Shown: positions 5,402-22,601 of the stretch, one piece after another
How positions within the stretch are numbered: position 1 is the stretch's first letter
Layout: each line of letters begins with the position of its first letter
Origin: Dehalococcoidia bacterium
Lineage (GTDB): Bacteria > Chloroflexota > Dehalococcoidia > DSTF01 > JACRBR01
Length of the DNA: 49,611 nucleotides
Assembly (NCBI GenBank): GCA_021462855.1
Contig: JAJTXQ010000017.1
Coordinates: 1 to 49,611, forward strand
Reading direction: 5' to 3'
Program-made: the position numbers and the translations under genes
The notes under the pieces: model-generated
Database searches by the model: none
Told to the model about the DNA's origin: nothing
The model's input: the letters and a program-made list of their open reading frames with translations, nothing else

Positions 5402-6043
5402 TCAGTCCGCGGCGCGATACGACTCCGGTAGCAGGCTGGCAATCCGGCTCATAATGACGTCCATGTCGTCGCGCAGTTGCTCCGACCGCGACGAGGCCGC
5501 CCCATTGAGTCGAAACGGTTCGCCGATGGTGACGCGAATGTGATGGATGCTCCTCGGCCGAAGAAACACGCCCGGCCACTTGATTCCCTCAGTTCCGGTG
5601 ATCGCGACAGGAAGGACCGGCGCGCCGGTTCTTCGTGCGATCAGCGCAGTTCCGGGGTGGCCGGCGCCGAGACGGCCTGAACGGCTCCGTGTTCCCTCGG
5701 GGAACATCATCAGCATCTCCCCGCCTCCCACGACGCGACACGCGGCCCGCACCGCACCCAGGTCCGGCTCGCCGCGGCGCACGGGAAACGCGCCCCACGC
5801 CTTGAACAACGCACCAATGATGGGCGCGTCGACCATCTCCTTCTTCGCCATGAAGATCACATAGCGCGGCAACGCGCGCTGGATCATCGGCGGGGCGGCG
5901 GCGTTCAGGGGATTGCTCACGACGATCACGCCGCCCGAGGCGGGGACGTGCTCCCGGCCGACCACCTCGTACCGCCGGCAGTAAACGAACGTGAGCAGGT
6001 CACCAACCAGGAGCACGAATCGGCGATATGCGCTGCGCATCAC
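5402..6043 (-). CDS. PlsC-like acyltransferase lacking the catalytic HX4D
   Basis: A 213-residue lysophospholipid acyltransferase-fold protein and the last gene of the seven-gene operon. The glycerol-3-phosphate-binding motif FPEGTRSRSGRL (114-125) and downstream VPVAITG are intact. The catalytic block, normally NHxxxxD, reads SNPLNAAAPP here: His is Pro45 and Asp is Ala50. Each is one A-to-C change from CAC and GAC codons. With neither catalytic residue it should not transfer acyl groups by the known mechanism, so it may be a regulatory or scaffold partner of the intact acyltransferase two genes upstream, or be decaying. It starts 6 nt after the DUF1295 stop. Confidence 0.85.
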   Translation of the reverse strand: MMRSAYRRFVLLVGDLLTFVYCRRYEVVGREHVPASGGVIVVSNPLNAAAPPMIQRALPRYVIFMAKKEMVDAPIIGALFKAWGAFPVRRGEPDLGAVRAACRVVGGGEMLMMFPEGTRSRSGRLGAGHPGTALIARRTGAPVLPVAITGTEGIKWPGVFLRPRSIHHIRVTIGEPFRLNGAASSRSEQLRDDMDVIMSRIASLLPESYRAAD

Positions 6044-6049
6044 CGAAGC

Positions 6050-6841
6050 TTATTCGGGGGCGATGTTGCGGGGAAACCACGGCACGAATGCGCTCGTCCG
6101 GGCGATGTACTCGCGGTAGCCCGGCTTCGTGCGCACCTGTGATCGCTCCAGAAGCGCGACGCCGGACACACGGACGAGCAGCAGCGTCATGATGATCGGG
6201 CTGGCCACCGTGAGCCACCCCATGCCAGCGCCGGCCGCGACAAGAAACAACCCCCACCATACGAGCGCATCTCCGAAGTAGTTCGGATGGCGCGTGTAGC
6301 GCCAGAGCCCGCTGTCCATGACATTGCCGCGGTTCGCCGGGTCGGCTTTAAACCGCGCGAGCTGCCAGTCGCCAACCGACTCAAACACGAACCCGACTGA
6401 CCACACGGCTACGCCGGCCACATCTGTCCATGTGGCTCCTGAAGCGTCATATGTGGCTGCCCAGACGAGAGGGAGAGAGATCAGCCACACCAGGACGCCC
6501 TGGAGGAGAAAGACCTGGACGAGGCTGAACCACCAGAAGCGCGGTCCAGCGTTGCGGCGCATCGCCTGGTAGCGCGGGTCTTCACCGTGGCCGCGATTGC
6601 GCAGGAAGATGTAGCCACCGAGCCGGAGGCCCCAGATCGAGGCGAGGGCGGCGACGACGATGCGACGCGCCGGGTCGCCTTCACCGACCATTGCGGCGAA
6701 GAGCGCGACCGCGGCGAAGCCCGGCCCCCACGCGATGTCGACGATGCTGGCGTTTCGGAGAACAAGGCTCAACAACCACAGCGCCGTCATCACAGCGGCG
6801 ATGCCGGCCAGTGCGACGGTCCACGTCTCCAGGAAACTCAC
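6050..6841 (-). CDS. DUF1295 membrane protein (steroid 5-alpha-reductase-like)
   Basis: A 263-residue polytopic membrane protein of the DUF1295/isoprenylcysteine methyltransferase-like superfamily. The C-terminal signature is clear: LWRYTRHPNYFGD, followed by 'WWG.FL' and a terminal 'LLERSQVRTKPGYREYIART.AFVPWFP', as in 5-alpha-reductase-like enzymes. About six hydrophobic helices are visible. The family reduces or methylates lipid-like substrates, and the true substrate here is unknown. The ATG overlaps the preceding acyltransferase stop by 4 bp. Its presence between two acyltransferases suggests envelope lipid modification. Confidence 0.85.
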   Translation of the reverse strand: MSFLETWTVALAGIAAVMTALWLLSLVLRNASIVDIAWGPGFAAVALFAAMVGEGDPARRIVVAALASIWGLRLGGYIFLRNRGHGEDPRYQAMRRNAGPRFWWFSLVQVFLLQGVLVWLISLPLVWAATYDASGATWTDVAGVAVWSVGFVFESVGDWQLARFKADPANRGNVMDSGLWRYTRHPNYFGDALVWWGLFLVAAGAGMGWLTVASPIIMTLLLVRVSGVALLERSQVRTKPGYREYIARTSAFVPWFPRNIAPE

Positions 6842-7632
6842 AGCCTCGTTCCAGCGTGAGGGTTCAACGCGAGTTCGAGCGGCCGCAGCTGCGCATAGGC
6901 CCAGTTGGCGATTTGCTCCCAGCGGCGCTGCTCATCCCCTGCTTCGACGGTGCTCGTGAGGTCATCGACGAGTGCTTCGTCACACGCAGTCGGCTCGCCG
7001 AACCGCAGCGCGACGCAGTTGCCCGCGCGCGGCCGCACTGAACCGACCGGCAACACCTTTTGCATGCCGTAGTGATAGAAGGGAAGCGCAATAGGGTGCG
7101 CCTCGTCGATCAGCCGGCCAATGCCGCTCTTGAACGGTGTACGCATCAGTGCCTGCGCGTCGCGCGTGCGTCCGCCTTCGGGGAAGATGTGTACCCACGC
7201 GCCCTCGGCGAGCTTGTCGCGCAGGAAGTAGAAGCCATCCTGTCCCATCCCTGCGCCCCGCACGACTGGCACGCACTTACCGGCCGTAAACACCCAGGCT
7301 TTCCACCAGGACCCGAAGAAATTGATCGCGTCGGACGCGACCCACCGGATGTCGTCGTAGCGCGCTGACGTGAAGTTCGCCGTCAACAAGGGATCGTCGA
7401 ACATCGAGACGTGATTGCTGAAGGTGAGCAAGCCTCGTCCGTCTCGCTCGGACAACGCATCGAGGCGCTCCCGTCCTTCTATCGTAAGTGTGTTCAGGCG
7501 CCCCATGATCGTCTTCGAGCCAAGAATCACCAGTGCGGCGAGCGCCGGATGATACCAGCGGCGCGCCGGACGCCAGCGCGCGACGGCCCGGGCCTCGTTC
7601 ACGCCGATGCGCGGAACCGTCTCCTCGATCAT
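6838..7632 (-). CDS. 1-acyl-glycerol-3-phosphate acyltransferase family protein
   Basis: A 264-residue PlsC/tafazzin-like acyltransferase with both key blocks intact: FSNHVSMFDD with His74 and Asp79, and HIFPEGGRTRD at about 149-158. The 'TFSNH.S.FDDPL' and 'WVHIFPEG' wording is closest to tafazzin-like phospholipid transacylases. It is expected to act at the inner face of the cytoplasmic membrane. ATGA overlaps of 4 bp link it to the SDR gene upstream (7629-7632) and to DUF1295 downstream. It is the catalytically competent counterpart of the altered acyltransferase at 5402-6043. Confidence 0.87.
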   Translation of the reverse strand: MIEETVPRIGVNEARAVARWRPARRWYHPALAALVILGSKTIMGRLNTLTIEGRERLDALSERDGRGLLTFSNHVSMFDDPLLTANFTSARYDDIRWVASDAINFFGSWWKAWVFTAGKCVPVVRGAGMGQDGFYFLRDKLAEGAWVHIFPEGGRTRDAQALMRTPFKSGIGRLIDEAHPIALPFYHYGMQKVLPVGSVRPRAGNCVALRFGEPTACDEALVDDLTSTVEAGDEQRRWEQIANWAYAQLRPLELALNPHAGTRL

Positions 7633-9110
7633 CGTGCGCTCTTGGACGGGCGGCCCGGAGCGTGCGGCGGCGACTCAACGGCGGCCTGGGCGCGCGCGAC
7701 GATTCTTGAAGCCATGCCGTGGAAGATGATCGCATGGACCGGAAACAGCAACCACCAATAGAGGCGGCCGAGTAGGCCTTGCGGCATGAACCTCGCCGTC
7801 TGTACAAGCACGGAATACGGAGGCTCCATCTCGACGTGGAACTCCAGCTCGGCACGGCCGGGCACCTTCATCAGGGCGCGCATCCGAAGCCGCTCGTTGA
7901 CGTCGTGCTCGAGTACTTCCCAGAAATCGACGCGATCGCCCGCTCGTAGTTCGCTGGCCGGGACGCCGGAGCGTCCGAGGCCAGGCCCGCCGAACAGCCG
8001 ATCGACAGCGCCGCGCAGCCGCCACAGCGGATCGAGCACCGGGTACCCTTGGCGTCCACCTATTGCGACGGCGCTGGTCCACAGCGCCTCTCGGGACGCA
8101 GTGGAGCGGCGCACTTGCGTTTCGACGAACACCGACGGGAATACGCGCCGCCGGACGAAATCGGCGAGGTGACGGGGAAGACGCCGCAGCCAGAGAAGCG
8201 GGGCTTCCCTGGGTTCGCGCTCCTCTCGTCGCGCGCGTTCCAGGGCTCCTTCGTAATCGATCCGGGCCGGACCAAAGGCGCGCGCCGCCGCGTCGTCTCG
8301 CACAAGCATCTCGCTCCGCAGCCCCTCGATGAGCGGACGTGCCAGTGCGGCGTCGACATCGGTGATCACGTCGACCCAGTACGAGGACAGCCGCGGGGTG
8401 AGCACCGGGACCGGGATCATCCAGCGCCGCTTCCCGCGAGCACGCGCGTATCGCTGCATCATCGAGCGGTACGTCATCACGTCGGGCCCGCCGACCTCGT
8501 AGATGCGCTCCTCAACGGCCGGATCGTCAAGCACCGCGACCAGATATCGCACGATGTCGTCGATGGCGATCGGTTGCGTACGCGTGTCGACCCAGCGGGG
8601 CGTGATCATCACTGGCAGGCGTTCAACGAGCTGCCGGAGCATCGTGTACGACGCGGACCCTGCGCCGATGATTAAGCCGGCACGCAGCTCGGTCACAGGG
8701 ACCGTGCCCGTCCGCAGGATGGCACCGACCTCATGACGGCTGCGCAGGTGCGCGCTCAGTTGCGATGCCTCATCGCCGAGGCCACCGAGGAAAATGATGC
8801 GCCGCAGGCTGGCGGCCTCTGCGGCAGCAGCGAAGTTCCGGGCTGCGGATCGGTCGCGTTCTTCGAACTCGAACTCGCTGCCCTCCATCGAGTGCACGAG
8901 GTAATACGCGACGTCCGTGCCGTCCATGGCCGCCTGCAGCGAGGGCAGGTCATGCACATCGCCGCGCACAACCTCCGCCGACGATGGCAGGAGGCCAACA
9001 GCCCGTGCCGGGTCACGCGACAAACAGCGGACCCGGTGGCCGCGGGCGAGGAGCGCCGGAACCAGGTGCGATCCGACGAAACCGGTGGCGCCAGCGACGA
9101 GGATGTTCAT
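7629..9110 (-). CDS. SDR-family NAD(P)-binding protein with DUF2867 domain
   Basis: A 493-residue two-domain protein. Residues 1-300 are an extended-type Rossmann fold: MNILVAGATGFVGSHL at the N-terminus, then 'VVRGDVHD' and 'YYLVHSMEG' as in NmrA/complex I NDUFA9-like SDRs. From about 330 onward is DUF2867, an SRPBCC-like lipid-binding fold (DRVDFWEVLEHD, 'LKMRALMKVPGRAELEF'-type strands, PQGLLGRLYWW.LFPVHA). The start at ATG 9110 overlaps the photolyase stop by 4 bp. The frame extends upstream, but that part is photolyase sequence read out of frame. In many genomes this fusion is a neighbour of photolyase and TIGR01777 genes under CarH/LitR control. Confidence 0.88.
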   Translation of the reverse strand: MNILVAGATGFVGSHLVPALLARGHRVRCLSRDPARAVGLLPSSAEVVRGDVHDLPSLQAAMDGTDVAYYLVHSMEGSEFEFEERDRSAARNFAAAAEAASLRRIIFLGGLGDEASQLSAHLRSRHEVGAILRTGTVPVTELRAGLIIGAGSASYTMLRQLVERLPVMITPRWVDTRTQPIAIDDIVRYLVAVLDDPAVEERIYEVGGPDVMTYRSMMQRYARARGKRRWMIPVPVLTPRLSSYWVDVITDVDAALARPLIEGLRSEMLVRDDAAARAFGPARIDYEGALERARREEREPREAPLLWLRRLPRHLADFVRRRVFPSVFVETQVRRSTASREALWTSAVAIGGRQGYPVLDPLWRLRGAVDRLFGGPGLGRSGVPASELRAGDRVDFWEVLEHDVNERLRMRALMKVPGRAELEFHVEMEPPYSVLVQTARFMPQGLLGRLYWWLLFPVHAIIFHGMASRIVARAQAAVESPPHAPGRPSKSAR

Positions 9111-10600
9111 GCAGCAACCCCCGTTCCGTACCGGGAAAGATAGTCGCCGAGCTTGAACTTGCGTGCCGTGTTCGCCGAGCTCATGTATCGCACTGTTCCG
9201 AAGATCGGGCGCTCCGGCCCCCACGGCCGGTCGTAGCGCCCGAGAGTCCAGAAGATGCCACTGTAGGAGTTCGGGTCGCGGCCGTCGAGGGCGTACTTGT
9301 TGTTCAGGTGGATCATGACAGCGAGAGCATCGCGCGGCGATCGCGTCCACTCCAGGATCCGCTTGCCCCAGAGCATGCGCAGGTAGTTCTGGATGACGCC
9401 CTCGCGCACAAGCTGGGACTGCGCGGCGTTCCAGACGACATCAGATGTCTCGGCCCGTTCGAGTTGCTCGATTCCGTAGAGGTGCGGGCGCGGGTCACGC
9501 TCGTGTCGCCCGAGCGTTCTCTGTGCCCATGCGGGCAGCGACTCGTAGCGGTCGTAGTCCGGCCGGTAGGCGCAGAAGTTGAACCCCAGCTCCCTCCATG
9601 TGATGAGTTGGTCGAGGAATGCCTCCGCCGCTTCACTCATCCCCCAAAATCCGGTTCGTGTACCGCGGCCTCCTGCCTTGATGCGGTCGATCGACCATCC
9701 CTCCGAGCGCGCAATCGCCGCGAACACTTCGTGCGTCGAAATGTGCCCGAAGTGGAGGTACGGCGACAGCAAACTGCTCGCCGACGCGTCGGGATCATTG
9801 CGGTCTTCCGCATATCGCGGGAGGCCGTGCTCGACGAGTGCGGCGAGTTGTGCCGATGCAGCGGCGCAGCCACCTCGGCGCGACAAGGTTCCGACGCAAT
9901 GGTCGATCGGCAGTGATCCAGCGTCGAAGTGAGCGAGTTGTTCCGCAGTTGCGGTCGGCCATCGGACGAGCGCGTCGCCTGAAATCGACGCTGCTCGCGC
10001 AGGAGCGAACAGCAGTGGTTCCTCCTGCGGCACGGCCAGGAGGTCCTCAAGGATGTTGTGCTGGAGCCAGCGACGGAACGAGAACGCGGTGTCGAATGCT
10101 CGTCCCGGACATGCGAGCGCATGGAGACCGTTCGAGTCGATTGTCTCGAGGGCGACATCGGTGCGGGCCGCGGCCGTGCGGATTGCGGCCGGCAGGAAGA
10201 ATGCCGGGTAGTCGTCCGCGACGACGACGCACGCCCGCGCCGCGAGCGCGCGCAGCAATCCCTTGCCGGCGCCTGGCGATCGCTCAACGTACGGGTAATA
10301 ACTGACTCCGGCGCTCGCGAACGCCGCCGCGTTGTCCGCCATCCCGTCGATGATGAAGCGATGGAATCGGTCAGATGCCCACGAGTAATCGAGCCGCAGC
10401 GTTTCCAGGACGAGCAAGGGCTTTCCGAGATGATTCGCCCACTCCACCGCACGCTGCAAGGCGAAGTTGTATCGCGTGCGGCGAAACGCCGTCATCAAGT
10501 AGAGCACGAAGTCGCCGTCCGGACGGACCGGTCGCTCGTTCGCCTGTCGGATGCGAACCGAAGGGATGGCCGAGCCGAACAGCGCCGCCGCTCCGGTCAT
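9107..10600 (-). CDS. phr: Deoxyribodipyrimidine photolyase, class II type
   Basis: A 497-residue photolyase, which repairs UV cyclobutane pyrimidine dimers using FADH- and blue light. The N-terminal antenna-binding half starts at about residue 29 (GDFVLYLMTAFRRTRYNFAL). The C-terminal FAD domain holds the class II hallmark around NNKYALDGRDPNSYSGIFW, followed by GRYDRPWGPERPIFG and YMSSANTARKF. The last block usually reads SSEN or SSDN; Ala in that slot is unusual. It overlaps its neighbours by 4 bp on both sides. Its place in a CarH-linked operon argues for light-induced expression. Confidence 0.92.
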   Translation of the reverse strand: MTGAAALFGSAIPSVRIRQANERPVRPDGDFVLYLMTAFRRTRYNFALQRAVEWANHLGKPLLVLETLRLDYSWASDRFHRFIIDGMADNAAAFASAGVSYYPYVERSPGAGKGLLRALAARACVVVADDYPAFFLPAAIRTAAARTDVALETIDSNGLHALACPGRAFDTAFSFRRWLQHNILEDLLAVPQEEPLLFAPARAASISGDALVRWPTATAEQLAHFDAGSLPIDHCVGTLSRRGGCAAASAQLAALVEHGLPRYAEDRNDPDASASSLLSPYLHFGHISTHEVFAAIARSEGWSIDRIKAGGRGTRTGFWGMSEAAEAFLDQLITWRELGFNFCAYRPDYDRYESLPAWAQRTLGRHERDPRPHLYGIEQLERAETSDVVWNAAQSQLVREGVIQNYLRMLWGKRILEWTRSPRDALAVMIHLNNKYALDGRDPNSYSGIFWTLGRYDRPWGPERPIFGTVRYMSSANTARKFKLGDYLSRYGTGVAA

Positions 10601-11133
10601 GCTGCCTCCGTCGCCGTTACTGGCTCACCAGGCGCGCGTGAACCGAATCGAAGGGCGATCGCGCCGGCACGATGCGCGAAGATGTCGTACAACTGGCGGC
10701 GAATGAAGAAGAAGTGCGCGATGCGGCCGAGCAGGCCGAGCGGCGGCGTATAGAGCACGCGGTCTTCCATGATCGTGCGCCGCGGGCCGTCTGCGCTGAA
10801 CTGATGCTCGTGCCACCAGCAGTGATACGGGCCGCGAAGTTGCGAATCGATGAATCGCTTCCCCGGCTGCCAGGCTTCGATGCGCGTCTGCCATCGGACT
10901 CGGGCTGGGCCGATGCGGACGCGGTACGAGATGAGCGCACCGTCCTTCATCTCACCGGAGTAGCTCGTAATCCGGAAGCCCATCCTCGGCGGCGTGATGG
11001 CACCGAGGTTCTCGGGCTTCGAAAAGAACGCAAACACTTCGTCGATTGGGGCATCGATGACCGTGCGGCACTTCAGCTCGTAGCGCGGACGACGTGTCCG
11101 GAGATATGCGTTCTCCACGTGGTGGCTACGCAT
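10597..11133 (-). CDS. SRPBCC-family (START/PYP-like) protein
   Basis: A 178-residue helix-grip (SRPBCC) protein of the ligand-binding cyclase type. The fold is recognisable from 'IDAPIDEVFAFFSKPENLGAITPP', the following 'F.I' strand, and the 'GPYHCWWHEHQF' and VLYTPPLGLLGRIAH C-terminal helix. It has no enzyme motif. The ATG at 11133 shares bases with the TGA of the TIGR01777 gene and has GGAG 8 nt before it; an alternative ATG lies at 11139. The stop overlaps the photolyase start by 4 bp. SRPBCC plus TIGR01777 pairs are common and sometimes fused, which suggests they work together on a lipid or quinone-like molecule. Confidence 0.85.
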   Translation of the reverse strand: MRSHHVENAYLRTRRPRYELKCRTVIDAPIDEVFAFFSKPENLGAITPPRMGFRITSYSGEMKDGALISYRVRIGPARVRWQTRIEAWQPGKRFIDSQLRGPYHCWWHEHQFSADGPRRTIMEDRVLYTPPLGLLGRIAHFFFIRRQLYDIFAHRAGAIALRFGSRAPGEPVTATEAA

Positions 11134-12077
11134 CACCATGACTCCAGTCGGCGGACCTCGACCGGCGCCGACCGCCCGACGATCTCGGAGAGCGCGGCGT
11201 TGATCTCCCCATATGAGAAGTGGAAGCCGACATTGAGCGCCTTCTCCGGTACAGCCCGCTGTCCGGTCAGAAGTACGCTGGACGCCTCGCCGAGCGCCAG
11301 CTTCAGGGCGAATCCAGGGAGCGGCAAGAAGGCCGGGCGGTGCAACGCGCGGCCGAGAGAGCGCGCGAACTCGCGGGTCGTGACGGGCTCCGGCGCCGAA
11401 ACGTTCACAGGCCCGCTGAAGCGATCGTCCCGGAGCGCCGCAGCGATCATGTCGACGTGGTCGTGGAGGTGGATCCAGGGCATGTACTGCCGGCCGGAGC
11501 CGATCGGCCCGCCGAGGCCCAGCTTGAACGGGAGCAGGAGCCGGGCAAGCGCCCCGCCCTCCCGGCCCAGCACGATGCCGGTACGCAGCAGCACGACGCG
11601 CGTACCTGCCGACTCGGCCCGGAGCGCGGCTTGCTCCCAATCGCGGCAGAGGCGAGCGAGGGTATCGTCGGCTGGCGCGCTTGCCTCTGTCAGTACTTCG
11701 TCGCCGCGATCGCCGTAGTAGCCCACCGCGCTTCCGGACACGAAGACGGACGGCTGGTGTTCGGCATACCGCATGGCATGCACGAGCCGCTCGGTCAGTT
11801 GCACGCGGCTTTCCGTGATCGCCTGCAGGCGCTTTCGCGTCCAGCGGCCGACGAGTGGCTCCCCGGCAAGGTTGACGACGCCGTCACTCACCGCGAGAGC
11901 GTCCCGCAACGCTGATTCGCCGGACTCGATCGGGAGCAGGTCCACGTCCGCGCCGAGCGCGCCGCGCGCCCGCTCCTCGTCGCGGATCCACGCCGTAATC
12001 GTGTGTCCATCGCGCTGCAGGCGCAGGACGAGCGCCCGGCCAATGAAGCCCGTCGCGCCGGTGATGAAGATGTGCAT
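11133..12077 (-). CDS. TIGR01777 family epimerase (YfcH-like SDR)
   Basis: A 314-residue extended SDR and first gene of the seven-gene operon. The cofactor motif is MHIFITGATGFIGRALV. Family signatures follow: VNLAGEPLVGRWTRKR, SGSAVGYYGDRGDE (with the Tyr of the catalytic site), LLRTGIVLGREGGALA and MPWIHLHDHV. Its substrate is not known for any member. GGAG lies 7 nt before the ATG at 12077. It frequently neighbours photolyase and MerR/B12 regulators in bacteria, as here. The operon then runs with 1- to 7-bp overlaps down to 5402. Confidence 0.9.
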   Translation of the reverse strand: MHIFITGATGFIGRALVLRLQRDGHTITAWIRDEERARGALGADVDLLPIESGESALRDALAVSDGVVNLAGEPLVGRWTRKRLQAITESRVQLTERLVHAMRYAEHQPSVFVSGSAVGYYGDRGDEVLTEASAPADDTLARLCRDWEQAALRAESAGTRVVLLRTGIVLGREGGALARLLLPFKLGLGGPIGSGRQYMPWIHLHDHVDMIAAALRDDRFSGPVNVSAPEPVTTREFARSLGRALHRPAFLPLPGFALKLALGEASSVLLTGQRAVPEKALNVGFHFSYGEINAALSEIVGRSAPVEVRRLESW

Positions 12078-12132
12078 AGCGCTCTCCGTACAAGTCAGTC
12101 CGCAGAACCTTGTGGCGCTGCGCACCGCCGAA

Positions 12133-12235: not shown

Positions 12236-13096
12236 TTAGGCGCGCCGCTTCGACGCGACCAGCGTCCCCGACGCTGCCGCGACGATGCCGACGGCGGCGA
12301 CCCCAGCAATGAGCCACATCCAGCCGCTTCCGGCGTCAGTCGGGCCCGTGCCCGTCTTCGGCAGCGCGCTGCCGCCAGAGGCCGGCGCGGCCGCCGGCGC
12401 TGCCGCGGGAGCCGGCGCCGGGTCATTGACCACGGGCAGCGCCTCGAGCTTTGGCGTGCCGTTCAACAGACCCACGGCGAACACGGTGTAGATCTTCCCG
12501 GCCGCCAGCTTCACGCCATTGATCGGGAGGGCGACCGTGGTCGTGCCGGCGGCGCGGACTTCGAGGTCGTACGCACCGGCATCGACCGGCAGCGGGCCGG
12601 CGTCCTTGCCGAACGCCAGGTTCGGGACGAGGACGGCCCCATCCTTCACCGCGATGTCGACGGCGGGGGCATCAGGCGAGGCGTGGACCACACGCACGTG
12701 CGCCTTGCCCGGGGCGGGCGCAGCGTTGTTGTCGACGAGGACGAGCGGCTTGATCTCGGCAAGCTTGCCGATCGCGACGACCGTGTAGTCCTTGCCGGCT
12801 TCGAGCGTCGCGTCCGCGTTGATGACGGCGGTGGCGGACGCCGGGTTCGCACCGGTACCGAAGACCTTGAAGTTGTGCGGCCCCGCCGGGACCAACAGAT
12901 AGTCCGACGCCCCCTTGAAGGCGACGTTGGTGAGCACCTTCGTCCCGTCGGCGTAGATGTCGACCGCGGGCGCGTCCGGGGAGGCGTGAACGACGCGCCC
13001 GCGCGCCATCTCCGCCGCCGTAGCGGCCGACCCAGCGGCCCAGAACACGATTCCGATTGCGCCGATGGCGGCCAAGATGCCAAGCAAGCGTTTCAT
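12236..13096 (-). CDS. Secreted DUF4397 surface protein with LPXTG anchor
   Basis: A 286-residue exported protein. It has an N-terminal signal peptide (MKRLLGILAAIGAIGIVFWA, cleavage probably after ATA-A near residue 28). Two DUF4397 repeats each begin with the same phrase, RVVHASPDAPAVDI, near residues 34 and 137. An Ala/Pro linker follows, then LPKTG at about 245-249, a hydrophobic helix and a KRRA tail. That C-terminus is a full sortase sorting signal, so the protein should be linked to the cell wall or surface layer. AAGGAGG lies 6 nt before the ATG. Its promoter (TTGACT/TACAGT) is embedded in the CarH operator array, so it is probably light-regulated. Confidence 0.88.
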   Translation of the reverse strand: MKRLLGILAAIGAIGIVFWAAGSAATAAEMARGRVVHASPDAPAVDIYADGTKVLTNVAFKGASDYLLVPAGPHNFKVFGTGANPASATAVINADATLEAGKDYTVVAIGKLAEIKPLVLVDNNAAPAPGKAHVRVVHASPDAPAVDIAVKDGAVLVPNLAFGKDAGPLPVDAGAYDLEVRAAGTTTVALPINGVKLAAGKIYTVFAVGLLNGTPKLEALPVVNDPAPAPAAAPAAAPASGGSALPKTGTGPTDAGSGWMWLIAGVAAVGIVAAASGTLVASKRRA

Positions 13097-13157
13097 TGAG
13101 ACCTCCTTCTTGGTTCAGTCCCTCCCCGGAACGCCCGGAGAGGTTGGTTCCGTTTCT

Positions 13158-13213
13158 TGTACAGAGACTGTACAGAGTCTAGACCGGGCGAGTCAAGGGT
13201 TTGTCTAGACAAA
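13158..13213. promoter_or_regulatory. CarH operator array between divergent DUF4397 and carH
   Basis: Four palindromes occur in 56 bp: TGTACA at 13158-13163 and 13169-13174 (11 bp apart, one helical turn), and GTCTAGAC at 13177-13184 and 13203-13210. The last lies inside a perfect 14-bp dyad, TTTGTCTAGACAAA (13200-13213). TGTACA-type repeats are the known operator style of CarA/CarH/LitR regulators. The first GTCTAGAC and second TGTACA sit in the spacer and -10 of the DUF4397 promoter; the second GTCTAGAC covers the carH -35. A tetramer bound in the dark could therefore close both promoters. Confidence 0.7.
13167..13196 (-). promoter_or_regulatory. Promoter of the DUF4397 gene
   Basis: On the minus strand, -35 TTGACT (13191-13196) and -10 TACAGT (13167-13172) are separated by 18 bp. 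The -10 overlaps a TGTACA operator and the spacer contains GTCTAGAC. Confidence 0.6.
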
Positions 13214-13234
13214 TTTGGACAAAAGTTGTATGCT
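13206..13234 (+). promoter_or_regulatory. carH promoter, probably giving a leaderless transcript
   Basis: -35 TAGACA (13206-13211) and -10 TATGCT (13229-13234) are 17 bp apart. The -10 ends only 6 nt before the carH ATG at 13241, so transcription should begin at or beside the start codon. No Shine-Dalgarno sequence precedes the ATG, which agrees with leaderless translation. Confidence 0.55.
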
Positions 13235-13240
13235 CGCTGC

Positions 13241-14125
13241 ATGGTCAGCGAGAACTTGCTTCGCATCGGTGAATTGAGTCGACGGACGGGGGTCACGCCG
13301 GAGGTCCTCCGGGCGTGGGAGCGGCGCTACGGGCTGTTCGCCCCGCAGCGGACGGATGGTGGGTTCCGCCTCTACTCGGCGGCCGACATCGGCCGCATCA
13401 ACATGATGAAGCGCCTCCTCGCTGACGGCGTGTCAGCGAGCGAAGCGGCGCACCGGATCGCGAGCGGACCGGCGGACGCGCCCGTGCCGGCGCCGGACCA
13501 CTCGCTCTTCGAGGCGCGGCGAGACGCGCTGGCGCAGGCTCTCTTCGCGTACGACGAAGCGAGCGCGCACGACGCCATCGATCGCGTTCTGATGGAGTTC
13601 GACGCCGAGGTATTGATGCGTTTCGTCTTCCTCCCGTTGCTGACAGAGGTAGGGCGGCGGTGGGAGGAGGGTGTGCTGTCGGTCGCCCAGGAGCACTTCG
13701 CCAGCAACCTCATTCGCCGTCGCCTGAGCGGATTCGCGCGGGGATGGGAGGATGGTGTCGGTCCGCGTGCGCTGCTCGCCTGCCCGCCGGACGAAGAGCA
13801 TGACATTCCGCTCTTCATGTTTGGCATCGCGCTGGGCCACCGCGGGTGGCGCATCACCTACCTCGGTCAACGCACGCCCGCGGATGAGTTGCTGAAGGCC
13901 CTCGAAGCGGTACGACCCGAGATCGTTGTGCTTGGGTCGCCCCGGCAGGGCGCCTACAGGGAGTTGATCGGCCCGCTCGGCAACGCGCCGCGCGGCGTGC
14001 GGGTCGCGATCGGTGGAGCAGGAGCCACCGCCGACCTTGCGGAGCGCATGGGCGCGCTCCTCCTCCAAGGCGATCCGATCGCGGCGGCCGACTGGGTAGC
14101 ATCATCGAATGGGGTGCGGGAATGA
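13241..14125 (+). CDS. carH: CarH/LitR-type MerR regulator with B12-binding light-sensing domain
   Basis: A 294-residue light-dependent repressor. Residues 7-75 form a MerR winged helix (RIGELSRRTGVTPEVLRAWE RRYGLF, then GGFRLYS). Residues 90-170 are the four-helix cap with the AdoCbl-pocket signature W-x9-EH: Trp141, Glu151, His152. Residues 178-294 are a cobalamin-binding Rossmann domain with the lower-ligand His187 in PDEEHDIP. Known CarH proteins bind DNA as tetramers with adenosylcobalamin in the dark and fall apart on blue to green light. The residue after Trp141 is Glu, where Thermus CarH has the His that caps cobalt after photolysis, so photoproduct chemistry may differ. It is translationally coupled (4-bp overlap) to heliorhodopsin. 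Confidence 0.93.
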   Translation: MVSENLLRIGELSRRTGVTPEVLRAWERRYGLFAPQRTDGGFRLYSAADIGRINMMKRLLADGVSASEAAHRIASGPADAPVPAPDHSLFEARRDALAQALFAYDEASAHDAIDRVLMEFDAEVLMRFVFLPLLTEVGRRWEEGVLSVAQEHFASNLIRRRLSGFARGWEDGVGPRALLACPPDEEHDIPLFMFGIALGHRGWRITYLGQRTPADELLKALEAVRPEIVVLGSPRQGAYRELIGPLGNAPRGVRVAIGGAGATADLAERMGALLLQGDPIAAADWVASSNGVRE

Positions 14126-14901
14126 ATGACCAACAGGGGTCTGGATGGTCCCGGCTGCGCCTCTTCAACCTCCTGATGGCGGTCCTGCACACAGGGCAGG
14201 GCATCGCGATCCTGCTGCTAAGCAACGAGGCGACGCTCCCTATCCGCACGTCATTCCTCCGCTTCAACGAGGAACGGCAGGCGCTCGAGACGGCAACGCG
14301 TGACGTCTTTGACGTGCAATTGGCGCCACTCGTGGCCTCGTTTCTCTTCATCTCCGCGATCGCGCACGCGCTGGTCGTGCTGCCGGGCGCGTACTCCTGG
14401 TATCGACAAAATCTCGATCGCTGCATCAACTACGTTCGCTGGTGGGAGTACGCGCTGAGCGCCTCGCTGATGATCGCCGTCATCGCGATGCTGCCGGGAA
14501 TGTACGACCTCCCGAGCTTGATCCTCATCTTCGCATTGAACGCCATGATGCTGCTCTTCGGCTTGCTGATGGAGATGCAGAACCGGCCCGGCGATCGCGT
14601 GAACTGGACACCATTCTGGTTCGGCTGCATCGCTGGAGCCGTGCCGTGGGTGGTGATCGCCTTGTACCTTTGGTCGCCGGGCACGGGTCCAGGCAACCCG
14701 CCGGGCTTTGTCTACGGGATCTTCTTCTCGCTGTTCGTCTGGTACTCACTCTTCGCCGTGAACATGTGGCTGCAGTACCGCCGGATCGGGCCCTGGCGCG
14801 AATACGTGTTCGGCGAGTATGGGTACATCGTGCTTAGCCTGACGGCGAAGTCCGCCCTGGCGTGGCAGGTGTTCGCCGGGGCACTCACGGTGCCGGTCTA
14901 G
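14122..14901 (+). CDS. Heliorhodopsin
   Basis: A 259-residue seven-helix retinal protein of the heliorhodopsin family, which has the opposite membrane orientation to type 1 rhodopsins (N-terminus inside). The family landmarks are all present with a nearly constant offset from the reference protein 48C12: His23 in AVLHTGQG, His82, counterion Glu109 in YVRWWEYALSASLMI, Ser239, and the Schiff-base Lys243 in LSLTAKSALAWQVFAG. Heliorhodopsins do not pump ions efficiently and are thought to signal or to modulate partner proteins. The gene overlaps carH by 4 bp and is followed 17 nt later by a small membrane protein, which makes it part of the CarH-controlled transcript. Confidence 0.95.
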   Translation: MNDQQGSGWSRLRLFNLLMAVLHTGQGIAILLLSNEATLPIRTSFLRFNEERQALETATRDVFDVQLAPLVASFLFISAIAHALVVLPGAYSWYRQNLDRCINYVRWWEYALSASLMIAVIAMLPGMYDLPSLILIFALNAMMLLFGLLMEMQNRPGDRVNWTPFWFGCIAGAVPWVVIALYLWSPGTGPGNPPGFVYGIFFSLFVWYSLFAVNMWLQYRRIGPWREYVFGEYGYIVLSLTAKSALAWQVFAGALTVPV

Positions 14902-14918
14902 ACGCGGGAGAGAATCGA

Positions 14919-15077: not shown

Positions 15078-15147
15078 GCCGCGGAATTCGTCGTCGAGTA
15101 CATGAGGCAGCCGAGAACAAGTACCCCATCGGTGCTCGAAAGTTGCT

Positions 15148-15250
15148 CACCTTTTGTTCACCCTCTTGTTGTGTACAAACGAAAATCGCTGTGAACAAAC
15201 GCAACGTAACGCTGGAGTGTAGGTTCACAACGAAACCACATGTCAACTAA
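15148..15250. repeat. Left-arm repeat of att-like site C (copy 2)
   Basis: Second copy of the 103-nt block at 1189-1291. It has the inverted CCTTTTGTTCACC, a GTGTACAAACG variant, and GTGAACAAACGCAACGTAACG. It ends in ATGTCAACTAA, 30 nt before tRNA fragment C. Spacing and order match copy 1, which indicates the same recombination junction type at both ends of the 1.4-15.3 kb interval. Confidence 0.7.
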
Positions 15251-15279
15251 AATCGCGTGTTGGCGTTCGAGGGCCGAAA

Positions 15280-15336
<57 letters not shown>

Positions 15337-15576: not shown

Positions 15577-15939
15577 GTGCATCCCGAGGAGCTTCTGACG
15601 TTAGTGTTGGAACTCGGCGCTCTCACGGATCCGCGAAACGCGGGCGGTTTCAGACATCAACCAGTCATCTTTCGGTCGGGAGACCACGGACTGCAACACA
15701 CGCTCATACCGCGCGCGATGCGTGCGTGGGCCGAAGCGTTCCTCGACGACCGCCTCTCTCCGCCGGATCTCTACCGCGAGTTTGAGCGCATTCACCCATT
15801 CGTCGACGGGAACGGGCGCGTGGGCGATTTGCTCTGGAAGATCGCTACCCATCGCAAAACGGATGCCTGGCCCGAACAGTTGCCGTCAGAGGCATTCGAC
15901 CCCCACGCCGACCTACCACGGGAATTGCGGCCGGACTAG
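15577..15939 (+). CDS. Fic-like protein, N-terminally unclear, altered Fic motif
   Basis: A 120-residue protein from GTG 15577. It carries FERIHPFVDGNGRVGDLL, the Fic core that in active AMP-transferases reads HxFx(D/E)GNGRxxR. The catalytic His is present but the last Arg, which binds the nucleotide phosphates, is Asp. The reading frame stays open and protein-like back to 15421 (PELTPTDHELIRRQ, then EADTPAEIAAFSAAYKRAKG) with no ATG, GTG or TTG. So the gene may start at CTG 15430 or may have lost its original start at junction C, 94 nt away. It converges with a second Fic gene. Confidence 0.6.
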   Translation: MHPEELLTLVLELGALTDPRNAGGFRHQPVIFRSGDHGLQHTLIPRAMRAWAEAFLDDRLSPPDLYREFERIHPFVDGNGRVGDLLWKIATHRKTDAWPEQLPSEAFDPHADLPRELRPD

Positions 15940-16038: not shown

Positions 16039-16473
16039 TCAGGTCTCAGCGCGCTCGTGTAGCTTCGCCGCATCCCGGACGGTGGCGAGGTAACTCTCCC
16101 GCTCGAGAGACGAGAACACGAACCATCGCTCGCCGGCGAGCAGTCGGAGCTGGTTGAACAGGAGCCGACCCATCCGGCCATTACCATCGACGAACGGATG
16201 GATACACTCGAATCGGCGGTAGAACGTCCACGCGCGTTTGCCGAGGTCGCGTTCCGACAGGCTAGCAACTATGTCTGACCACAAGATGTCGACGAGTTCC
16301 GAGACTCGACCTGACTGAGGAGGTAGGAAATCGCTACCTGAGAGCATGACATTGACATGCCTATAGCTTCCAACGCTGTCCCAAGGCAGGAGTCGACGCA
16401 TTAGCATGCGATGAATCTCGAGGGGGTGAGCGAGCCTGCCAGCTGCCACCTCATCGCCCCCCTTCGGCACCAC
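16039..16473 (-). CDS. Fic family protein, 5' end fused to tRNA fragment D
   Basis: Fic-domain protein with a canonical active site, FECIHPFVDGNGRMGRLLF, and the upstream strand 'VGSYRHVNVMLSGSDFLPP' typical of the flap that holds the target. Fic enzymes usually transfer AMP to hydroxyl side chains, often as toxin or host-modifying proteins. The frame runs from inside tRNA fragment D: its first residues (MVPKGGDE) are translated acceptor-stem sequence. The original N-terminus may have been cut by recombination, and the working start could be Met23 at 16407. No antitoxin gene is visible beside it. Confidence 0.65.
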   Translation of the reverse strand: MVPKGGDEVAAGRLAHPLEIHRMLMRRLLPWDSVGSYRHVNVMLSGSDFLPPQSGRVSELVDILWSDIVASLSERDLGKRAWTFYRRFECIHPFVDGNGRMGRLLFNQLRLLAGERWFVFSSLERESYLATVRDAAKLHERAET

Positions 16474-19396: not shown

Positions 19397-21901
19397 CTAC
19401 AACGGCAATTCGGCCGTCACCTTCGTCCCGCTGCCTGGCGCGCTATCGATGGTGAGCGAGCCGCCCAGCTTGCGCGCGCGCTCGGGCATCGACTGCAGGC
19501 CGACGTGGCCAGGGAATGACTGCGCGGTATCGAAGCCGCGGCCGTCGTCGCGGATCATCAGCTCGATCGATCCGTCGACCCGGCGCAGCCGTATTTCGAC
19601 GCGCGAGGCCTGCGCGTGTTTCACCACGTTGTGCAGCGCTTCCTGCGTGATGCGATAGAGCGCTTCCTTGATATCCAGCACGCAGTCCGGCTCCTCGCCC
19701 AGATCGAGTTCGACGCCGAGCTTGTAACGCGCTCCGACTGACGCCGCCTGCTTCTCGATTGCGGCGACCAGGCCTTCCTCTTCGAGCGACTCGGGTCTGA
19801 GCTCGAAGATGAGCGCGCGCATCTCGGCCAGGCCGGCCTGCGCGAGCGAAGCGACGTAGTCGATGGGCTCGGCGGCGTTCTGGGGATCGTCGCCCAGCCG
19901 CATCCTCGCTGTGCGTGTGCCCAGCGCAATGCCGTAGAGCGCCTGCGACACAGAATCATGCAACTCGCGCGCGAGGCGCTGGCGCTCCTCGAGTGACGCG
20001 GCTTGCTGCGCGGTTCGGTAGAGCTCGGCGTTGTTGATGGCGACGCCGGCGTGCGTGCCGAGCGCGGTCGCAAGCTCGGCGTGCCGCTGGGTGAAGAATC
20101 CAGCCTGTTCCTTCGATATCGCTAGCATGCCGATGGTGCGCTCGCCGAGTCTGATCGGGACCGCCATCCAGGAACCGACGCGCCGCAACGCCGAGTCCAG
20201 GACGCGTTCGTTGTTCCTGCGCCACGCGACCGCGAGCGGTGTCTCGCCGCGCGTGTCCTCGATGATTGCGGCCTCACCGCGTTCGATGAGTTCCCATATG
20301 ACACCTCCTTCCGCGACGGGGGCGCGCAGTTGTAGTTGCGATTGTTCCATCTCGAACCCTGGCTCGGCACGCGTCGCGAGGACGCGAAGCTCGGCGTCCT
20401 CGAGGATCATGATCAGCGAGCGGTCGTACGGGATGATCGCGCGGAGTTGCTCCAGGATGAGCTGCAGCAGGGGCCGCAGTTCCAGCGTTGATCCGACATT
20501 GCGCACGACGTCGAGCAGAGTCGTGAGCTCCCGAGTCCGATCCTCGACCCGCTGCTCGAGGACGCGTTCAGACTCCCGGAGTTGCTTCACCATGACGTTA
20601 AAGTCAGTCGCGAGGTCGCCAAGTTCGTCGCGACGCCCGAGCGCCACATTGGCAGTAAGGTCGCCGCCCGCAACCTGCCGCGTGGCATCGGTGAGCCTGT
20701 GCAGGGGCGCGAGCAGCAGCCGGCGGTTGAGGTAGGTGGCGCCGACCAGCCCGGCAACGAAGAGGCCGCCGAGCGCCACCAGCATGGTCTGGAGGGTGCG
20801 CGTTCCTTCGTCTCGAATTCCAGCTGTTATCAACGCCGCCTGGCCTGTGATGTCGGACACCGGCGCTGCCGCAGCAACGCTGCCGCCGACCTCCCCACTC
20901 GGCGTGTAAGAGATGAAGTAGTCCTCGTCGCCCAGCTCCACACTCTCGACCGGCAACGGGAAGACCGGCTTAGCCGTGCCCATCGCGGTGAGGACAGCGG
21001 AGACCGCCGGATTGCGCGACGCCTCGCCTGTAAGCAGGTCGAACTGCTTGGTTCGCGCGAGGACGCCGGTGCTATCCACGTAGAAGGCGAAGCCGCGAGG
21101 AGTGGGTTGAACCCCGTTCAGCGCGGCGATCACGCCGTCGAACGAGAACTGTACATCGATCGCGCCGCGAAACGCATCGCCAGCATAGACGGGGGTGCTC
21201 GCGGTGACGATCTGTCCCAGCTGCGCGCCGCCATCGTGGGGCGGCATCCAAACTGTGCGCCGGTCGGGATTATTGTCCGGCCCGACTGCGACCGTGTGCT
21301 CAGCGAAGCCGCTAGCAGCAGCAGTGGCGTCCACCGTCCCGCCTGGGGGATAGGAGCGAATGACACCGTTCGTGCTGATGAAGGAGATCGCGGCAGGATC
21401 GAACGCGCCGCCGCCGGCTCGTCCCTCGAATCCCCGGAGCACGATCGGAAACACGATGTCCAACGGCTTGGAGTACTCGATGTCGGCGCTCACCTCCGGT
21501 GACACCGGGTTGGCACCGCTCATCACGATGAGATCGGTGACGCGGTCAGGGTTCGCATCGAAGTGACGCCCGGACGTATCGACATCGAGCGCCGCGGGAT
21601 CGACACCATCGCCGTCTGCCACCGGTGGTTTCGCGGCGAGATAGAGGGCGGCGCGGCGTCCGGCCTCGGCGCCTGTTTCCAACTGCACCGCGCCAACCGA
21701 GGAGATCCCCCCTACGAACGCCTGCAGCGCGAGCTTGCCCTGCTCCTCGAGCGCCCGCTGACTGCGCCTCGATGCGTCGTCCTGGGCGCGGTCAAATCCC
21801 AGAAAGATGATGGCCGACGCTGCCGCCGCGAGGATCAGCAGGAAGGCCAACAGGCCGATATTGATCTTCGCGCCGAGGGAAAGGGAGCGGAGCGCGTTCA
21901 C
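19397..21901 (-). CDS. Sensor histidine kinase (NarL/HisKA_3 type) with extracellular sensor, HAMP and GAF
   Basis: An 834-residue membrane kinase. TM1 is at about 13-34. A ~340-residue extracytoplasmic Cache-like sensor follows, then TM2 at about 375-397 and a HAMP segment (NRRLLLAPLHRLTDATRQVA). A coiled linker leads to a GAF domain (about 455-630, 'PYDRSLIMILEDAEL' through 'GTHAGVAINNAELY'). The dimerisation/phosphoacceptor segment EERQRLARELHDSVSQALYG carries His648. The ATPase has N box EALHNVVKHA, G1 DDGRGFD and G2 GSGTKV. The start overlaps the response regulator stop by 4 bp. The cue is unknown. Confidence 0.93.
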   Translation of the reverse strand: MNALRSLSLGAKINIGLLAFLLILAAAASAIIFLGFDRAQDDASRRSQRALEEQGKLALQAFVGGISSVGAVQLETGAEAGRRAALYLAAKPPVADGDGVDPAALDVDTSGRHFDANPDRVTDLIVMSGANPVSPEVSADIEYSKPLDIVFPIVLRGFEGRAGGGAFDPAAISFISTNGVIRSYPPGGTVDATAAASGFAEHTVAVGPDNNPDRRTVWMPPHDGGAQLGQIVTASTPVYAGDAFRGAIDVQFSFDGVIAALNGVQPTPRGFAFYVDSTGVLARTKQFDLLTGEASRNPAVSAVLTAMGTAKPVFPLPVESVELGDEDYFISYTPSGEVGGSVAAAAPVSDITGQAALITAGIRDEGTRTLQTMLVALGGLFVAGLVGATYLNRRLLLAPLHRLTDATRQVAGGDLTANVALGRRDELGDLATDFNVMVKQLRESERVLEQRVEDRTRELTTLLDVVRNVGSTLELRPLLQLILEQLRAIIPYDRSLIMILEDAELRVLATRAEPGFEMEQSQLQLRAPVAEGGVIWELIERGEAAIIEDTRGETPLAVAWRRNNERVLDSALRRVGSWMAVPIRLGERTIGMLAISKEQAGFFTQRHAELATALGTHAGVAINNAELYRTAQQAASLEERQRLARELHDSVSQALYGIALGTRTARMRLGDDPQNAAEPIDYVASLAQAGLAEMRALIFELRPESLEEEGLVAAIEKQAASVGARYKLGVELDLGEEPDCVLDIKEALYRITQEALHNVVKHAQASRVEIRLRRVDGSIELMIRDDGRGFDTAQSFPGHVGLQSMPERARKLGGSLTIDSAPGSGTKVTAELPL

Positions 21902-22536
21902 GACGTTTCGAGCGGCGCGAGGCCTATCTGCGCCGCGTAGAGTGCAGCCTGCGTGCGGCTCTGCACGCCGAGCTTCATCAGGATGTTACTGACGTGGGTC
22001 TTCACGGTCTGCTCGCCGATCGTGAGCGCCGCCGCTATCTCTTTGTTCGCCTTGCCGCCCGCCAGCAGCCGCAAGACGTCCACTTCGCGCTCCGACAGCT
22101 GCTGCGGGTTATCCGGTGCTCGCACTTCGCGCATCAGTCGCGCGGCGGCTTTCGGCGTCAGGTGCACCTGGCCGACCGAGGCCGCATGGATGGCGGTGCG
22201 GAGCTCCTCCGGTTCGGCGTCCTTCAGCAGATATCCGATGGCGCCCGCCTTCACCGCACCGATCACCGCGCTGTCCTCTAGCACGCTCGTGAGCGCGATC
22301 ACCTCCGTGTCCGGAAGCTCGCGGCGGATCTGGGCGGTCGCGGCGATGCCATCCATGACGGGCATCAGCATGTCCATAAGGACGACATCCGGTCTGAGTT
22401 CATGCGCGAGGCGCACGGCCTCGGCGCCGTCAGGCGCCTCGCCGACGACGTCCATCTCGGGGTCGTCGGACAGGAACATCCGCAGGCCCTGGCGCACGAC
22501 CTGGTGATCGTCGGTGATGAGGATGCGAATTGCCAT
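21898..22536 (-). CDS. Response regulator, NarL/FixJ (LuxR-type HTH) family
   Basis: A 212-residue DNA-binding response regulator, partner of the histidine kinase downstream (4-bp overlap). The receiver domain has Asp9/Asp10, phosphoacceptor Asp55 (VVLMDMLMP), Thr/Ser at ALTS and Lys in YLLKDAEP. The LuxR-type HTH is at about 145-205 (LSEREVDVLRLLAGGKANKE, then TVKTHVSNILMKLGV). ATG 22536 is preferred to the upstream ATG at 22575 because the extra 13 residues are not domain-like. It probably activates the ABC transporter operon or its own operon. Confidence 0.93.
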   Translation of the reverse strand: MAIRILITDDHQVVRQGLRMFLSDDPEMDVVGEAPDGAEAVRLAHELRPDVVLMDMLMPVMDGIAATAQIRRELPDTEVIALTSVLEDSAVIGAVKAGAIGYLLKDAEPEELRTAIHAASVGQVHLTPKAAARLMREVRAPDNPQQLSEREVDVLRLLAGGKANKEIAAALTIGEQTVKTHVSNILMKLGVQSRTQAALYAAQIGLAPLETS

Positions 22537-22573
22537 CGTGTCCCCGCCGTCGCAGGATCTGTTGGATTCCCAC

Positions 22574-22601
22574 AATATATCCGCTCCCCCATGCGGGTGA
22601 A
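22574..22601 (-). promoter_or_regulatory. Candidate promoter of the response regulator-kinase operon
   Basis: Minus strand -35 TTCACC (22596-22601) and -10 TATATT (22574-22579), 16 bp apart, 38 bp before the response regulator start. The -10 is a rare AT-rich hexamer in this GC-rich DNA. Confidence 0.4.

Follow-up and report, generated by a model that had tools for sequence, protein, structure and literature searches.

The window analysed here, a stretch of 49,611 nucleotides from a Dehalococcoidia bacterium, carries a carH gene that runs into a heliorhodopsin gene on one strand, and a DUF4397 surface protein gene backed by seven tightly packed genes on the other (Table 1). The heliorhodopsin, which the initial annotation had overlooked, is matched over its full length, and the family model NF038020 (HeR) gives it 318.6 bits against a cut-off of 100. 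The seven-gene run comprises a TIGR01777 oxidoreductase, an SRPBCC protein (named from its sequence), a class II-type photolyase, an NmrA/DUF2867 protein, an acyltransferase, a DUF1295 protein and another acyltransferase. The photolyase (9107-10600) is matched by TIGR00591 at E = 7e-99, which is below the cut-off of that model, and by no Pfam model; among solved structures it is closest to deoxyribodipyrimidine photolyases such as 2xry. Beyond heliorhodopsin, two facing frames at 15577-15939 (plus strand) and 16039-16473 (minus strand) with the Fic-type motif HPFVDGNGR are possibly Fic remnants, and at 19397-22575 the sequence alone indicates a sensor histidine kinase adjoining a NarL-type response regulator.

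Table 1. Genes, promoter elements and putative operator positions around carH (coordinates in the window).
Feature	Coordinates	Strand	Remarks
Seven tightly packed genes behind DUF4397	5402..12080	-	
DUF4397 surface protein	12236..13096	-	PF14344, E 3.5e-60; C-terminal LPKTG; divergent from carH
Putative operator rung TGTACA	13158..13163	both	
DUF4397 -10 TACAGT	13167..13172	-	18-bp spacer from -35
Putative operator rung TGTACA	13169..13174	both	11 bp from the 13158 rung; overlaps DUF4397 -10
Third 11-bp position	13180..13185		plus strand TAGACC (degenerate), minus strand GGTCTA
DUF4397 -35 TTGACT	13191..13196	-	also a degenerate ladder rung
Putative operator rung TAGACA	13202..13207	-	in 11-bp register with the DUF4397 -35 rung; overlaps carH -35
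carH -35 TAGACA	13206..13211	+	from promoter scan; doubles as half-site; TAGATA at the same position in L005
Half-site TGGACA	13216..13221	+	in carH promoter spacer; 10 bp from TAGACA; kept in L005
carH -10 TATGCT	13229..13234	+	17-bp spacer from -35; ends 6 nt before ATG 13241
carH	13241..14125	+	294 aa; MerR-family B12-binding photoreceptor/repressor; Pfam MerR_1, B12-binding_2, B12-binding
Heliorhodopsin	14122..14901	+	ATG overlaps carH stop (ATGA); PF18761, E 1.3e-98

The MerR DNA-binding domain of the carH product is recognized by PF13411 (E = 6.6e-17) and contains RxWERRY in the form RAWERRY, and the top PDB matches of the protein are Thermus thermophilus CarH (3whp/5c8d). The NCBIfam model TransRegCarH matches at E = 3.9e-43 with 147.7 bits, below its curated cut-off of 400, which is a threshold for naming and not a mechanistic feature. 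Published signatures of CarH are RxWERRY, Wx9EH, which lies over the adenosyl group, and D/ExHx2G/P, and Wx9EH separates light-sensing CarH from CarA (PMC9304148). Here Wx9EH is intact (WEEGVLSVAQEH) and the lower axial ligand motif reads EEHDIP. In the B12 motif, GG is kept and SxT/V is replaced by GSP, and the residue after Trp is Glu, not His. These two replacements would fit a protein with CarH-like DNA binding that does not sense light through AdoCbl (CarA-like or apo-active) and answers to some other signal, and PMC9758184 describes a Pseudomonas class II LitR/CarH that acts via a LOV partner. Such a protein is nevertheless unlikely here: Wx9EH is intact in all 15 homologues compared (own sequence included), the axial His is present in every homologue whose alignment reaches it (L127 ends earlier, at a contig end), SxT/V is degenerate in most close homologues as well, and the photolyase and heliorhodopsin neighbours suggest light. 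Judged by these domains and motifs, the carH product is a CarH homologue despite the loss of SxT/V. The initial annotation had named CarH as the regulator of the locus, which agrees with the CarH domains, Wx9EH and ExHx2P, and we infer the regulation itself.

When the region 12950-13300 was scanned for promoters, exactly two sigma-70-like promoters were found (0.1 in shuffles), and these are the TTGACT/TACAGT and TAGACA/TATGCT promoters proposed from the first inspection. The DUF4397 transcript has a leader of approximately 60 nt with the Shine-Dalgarno sequence AAGGAGGT ahead of its ATG; before the carH start there is none. The 140 bases ahead of the start codon were compared among 15 carH genes, consisting of our own, seven homologues within its class and a further seven drawn mainly from Actinomycetota, with near-identical pairs reduced to one; some of the homologue start codons were chosen by hand, within the choice left by the open frames. 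TAnnnT ends 6-8 nt before the start in 11 of the 15, compared with a mean of 0.76 and a maximum of 5 in 5000 shuffles. Other -10-like words are TAnnnT at 9 nt in L047, and GAGAAT, GACACT and TATAAC at 6-7 nt in L006, L127 and L043, respectively. The nearest homologue, L005 (61% identity), has TAGATA-17-TATCAT-6-ATG, with TGGACA again in the spacer. Several homologues have no alternative carH start, because their open frame extends just a few codons upstream of the one used.

This geometry strongly predicts a leaderless carH transcript, as the initial annotation had proposed from the position of the -10, and transcription is predicted to start at or adjoining A13241. Alternatively, carH mRNA might be leadered and start at a more distant upstream promoter, with the -10 beside the ATG being a coincidence. 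We regard this as quite improbable, considering the missing Shine-Dalgarno sequence, the gap of 6 nt, which L005 shares and most homologues approach, and the result that no second plus-strand promoter was found within 12950-13300.

The initial annotation had described an operator code of two TGTACA and two GTCTAGAC palindromes with spacings of 11 and 26 bp, and its letters and coordinates are all correct: the TGTACA pair is that of Table 1, and the two copies of GTCTAGAC, with 26 bp from one to the next, occupy 13177-13184 and 13203-13210. CarH operators described in the literature consist of direct repeats of 11 bp in tandem, 5'-nnnnTnnACAn-3', which overlap the -35 or -10 and in which full and degenerate repeats are often mixed (PMC9304148). 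Read on the minus strand in an 11-bp register, positions 13207, 13196, 13185, 13174 and 13163 give TAGACA, TTGACT, GGTCTA, TGTACA and TGTACA, that is, in order, a full, a degenerate, a degenerate, a full and a full rung. The two middle rungs, TTGACT and GGTCTA, deviate from TnnACA, and on the carH side the plus strand adds the half-sites TAGACA at 13206 and TGGACA at 13216, 10 bp from each other. As the first reading had held, both divergent promoters are overlapped by these sites, since rungs coincide with the -35 and -10 of DUF4397 and with the -35 and spacer of carH.

The 11-bp register is also the one found in relatives. Upstream of the 15 carH genes, 19 pairs of TnnACA lie at a lag of 11, whereas 1000 dinucleotide shuffles average 0.045 and never exceed 1, and the next commonest lags are 22 bp (8) and 33 bp (6). 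L005 has TGCCTA where our rung 13202..13207 stands. Two homologues from the same phylum that were found later, L159 and L160, have the same repeats, and L160 also has TATAAT 7 nt before its ATG. In less closely related CarH homologues (families f5, part of f36, and L161) the ladder is mostly missing or reduced to one pair, and these were left out of the support for leaderless transcription. TGTACA occurs nine times in the window, and when the whole window was scanned in 144-nt tiles, two 11-bp TnnACA pairs were found only in tiles over the operator region. By pattern search across the 3.0-Mb genome, TGTACA-N5-TGTACA with at most one mismatch has a single match, at the carH operator, and its control has 0; the three-unit TnnACA ladder with one mismatch is likewise present only here, with one match for the reversed control as well, so that chance is about as likely for that pattern.

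From these repeats, we think it very probable that CarH is bound to an 11-bp repeat ladder between two back-to-back promoters. The palindrome as operator unit was rejected because direct repeats at lag 11 account for the set of loci; the conserved unit has the core TnnACA and matches published CarH operators, and TGTACA and GTCTAGAC appear palindromic because TAGAC(A) and TGTACA, as TnnAC(A) half-sites, can by happenstance be read on both strands. Relatives do not keep the 26-bp spacing, which had been taken as meaningful. Operators of two strengths with ordered release, suggested by each palindrome occurring twice on the promoters, are very improbable, since relatives keep the direct-repeat register and neither the palindromes nor the 26-bp spacing, and GTCTAGAC occurs once more where the heliorhodopsin gene ends (14896-14903, across its stop codon). 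Separately, 15101-15300 contains up to eight TnnACA half-sites without the 11-bp register.

We then compared the gene neighbourhoods. carH and heliorhodopsin adjoin in our genome (G000) and in G293, G318 and G264, that is, in four genera and three arrangements: heliorhodopsin is downstream of carH here, divergent from it in G293 and G318, and behind DUF4397 on the divergent side in G264. Therefore, heliorhodopsin changes side yet remains behind the same operator. Heliorhodopsin was found in 16 of the 32 genomes with carH and in 60 of the 361 others (Fisher p = 4e-5), counts that carry no correction for relatedness or draft assemblies; the estimate for adjacency by chance treats the genomes as independent and is only indicative. 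One strand of G154 (L153, 6632-11359) carries in a row heliorhodopsin, further frames, a CarH less closely related to ours and a photolyase-like frame. The DUF4397 gene is divergent from carH in G049 and G264 also, and the kinds of genes in the seven-gene run flank carH in relatives too. A promoter or terminator was looked for in the gap between DUF4397 and this run, and none was found; the seven genes may belong to the CarH regulon, and carH and heliorhodopsin would share one transcript.

Carotenoids are the usual product of CarH control. The phytoene synthase family has no match in our 97%-complete genome, and 7 of the 14 controls were positive. This bacterium seems unable to make carotenoids, and with no phytoene synthase match, the retinal for heliorhodopsin would therefore come from outside or by another route. 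The retinal-forming Blh (PF15461) gave no match, but its controls were equally silent, which makes this negative uninformative.

The repeats, promoters, gene identities, conserved geometry and recurrent carH-heliorhodopsin linkage computed here lead us to consider it highly probable that the locus is a CarH-type autoregulated light switch, in which an 11-bp ladder lies on a divergent promoter pair and carH-heliorhodopsin mRNA is leaderless. Dark repression by AdoCbl-bound CarH, lifted by light, is established for CarH elsewhere. By analogy, binding, oligomeric state, light response, co-transcription and transcript start would be as follows. In the dark, an AdoCbl-bound CarH oligomer, as known from other CarH proteins, would occupy the ladder at approximately 13158-13221 and cover the -35 and -10 of DUF4397 and the -35 and spacer of carH. 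Because elements of both promoters are covered, both would be repressed, with polymerase blocked. Green or blue light would break the Co-C bond, the oligomer would dissociate and both promoters would open, giving the leaderless carH-heliorhodopsin mRNA on the plus side and, on the minus side, a leadered mRNA that encodes the DUF4397 surface protein and probably includes the photolyase and the lipid/SDR genes. We also find it reasonably probable, with less confidence, that a B12 photoreceptor gates production of a retinal photoreceptor directly and more widely. Heliorhodopsin would then be under dark repression by CarH in several Dehalococcoidia genera, whichever side of the same operator it lies on, and at least one of their genomes would lack phytoene synthase; the output would be light sensing, DNA repair and envelope change, not carotenoids.

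The regulator and the operator type are already known. T. thermophilus CarH (5C8D/5C8E/5C8F) shares the domain order, RxWERRY, Wx9EH and ExHx2G/P with our protein, and in its operator 11-bp TnnACA repeats likewise follow in tandem, one of them being the -35 (PMC9304148). In contrast, our protein lacks the His after Trp and has lost SxT/V, no phytoene synthase was found in its genome, and its ladder, which lies between divergent promoters, has as many as five positions, two of them degenerate. The myxobacterial operators are similar in their mixed ladders of full and degenerate repeats (DR/dr), four to five of them over the -35/-10 and bound by CarH there, although they control carotenoid genes (PMC9304148). 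LitR/CarH loci with photolyase and SDR genes in Pseudomonas and Actinomycetota share the TIGR01777, NmrA/DUF2867 and DUF1295 neighbours, whereas those examined have no heliorhodopsin beside carH. A MerR-family gene adjoins heliorhodopsin, as here, in one of ten heliorhodopsin neighbour groups of PMC11109279, whose relevant passages do not name the regulator as CarH or describe an operator. A light/dark RNA-Seq study (PMC8591293) contains heliorhodopsin, and CarH is absent from it. No paper mentioning both CarH and heliorhodopsin was found in the open-access literature, a search outside which most subscription journals lie, so that priority is not proven; nor did the titles and abstracts of that literature yield a paper on leaderless carH. 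The association of CarH with heliorhodopsin in four genera, its presence in a phytoene-synthase-negative genome and the predicted leaderless self-repressed transcript thus appear to be unreported, as far as the open-access literature goes.

The function of heliorhodopsin is mostly open, and its conserved place behind a light-released repressor would tell when it is made, namely in the light and together with photolyase. A heliorhodopsin locus released by light would thereby offer a testable regulon, and CarH control would extend to an organism without detected phytoene synthase. The locus may also serve as a compact example of a self-repressing light switch with a leaderless transcript, in which promoter elements are at the same time operator rungs.
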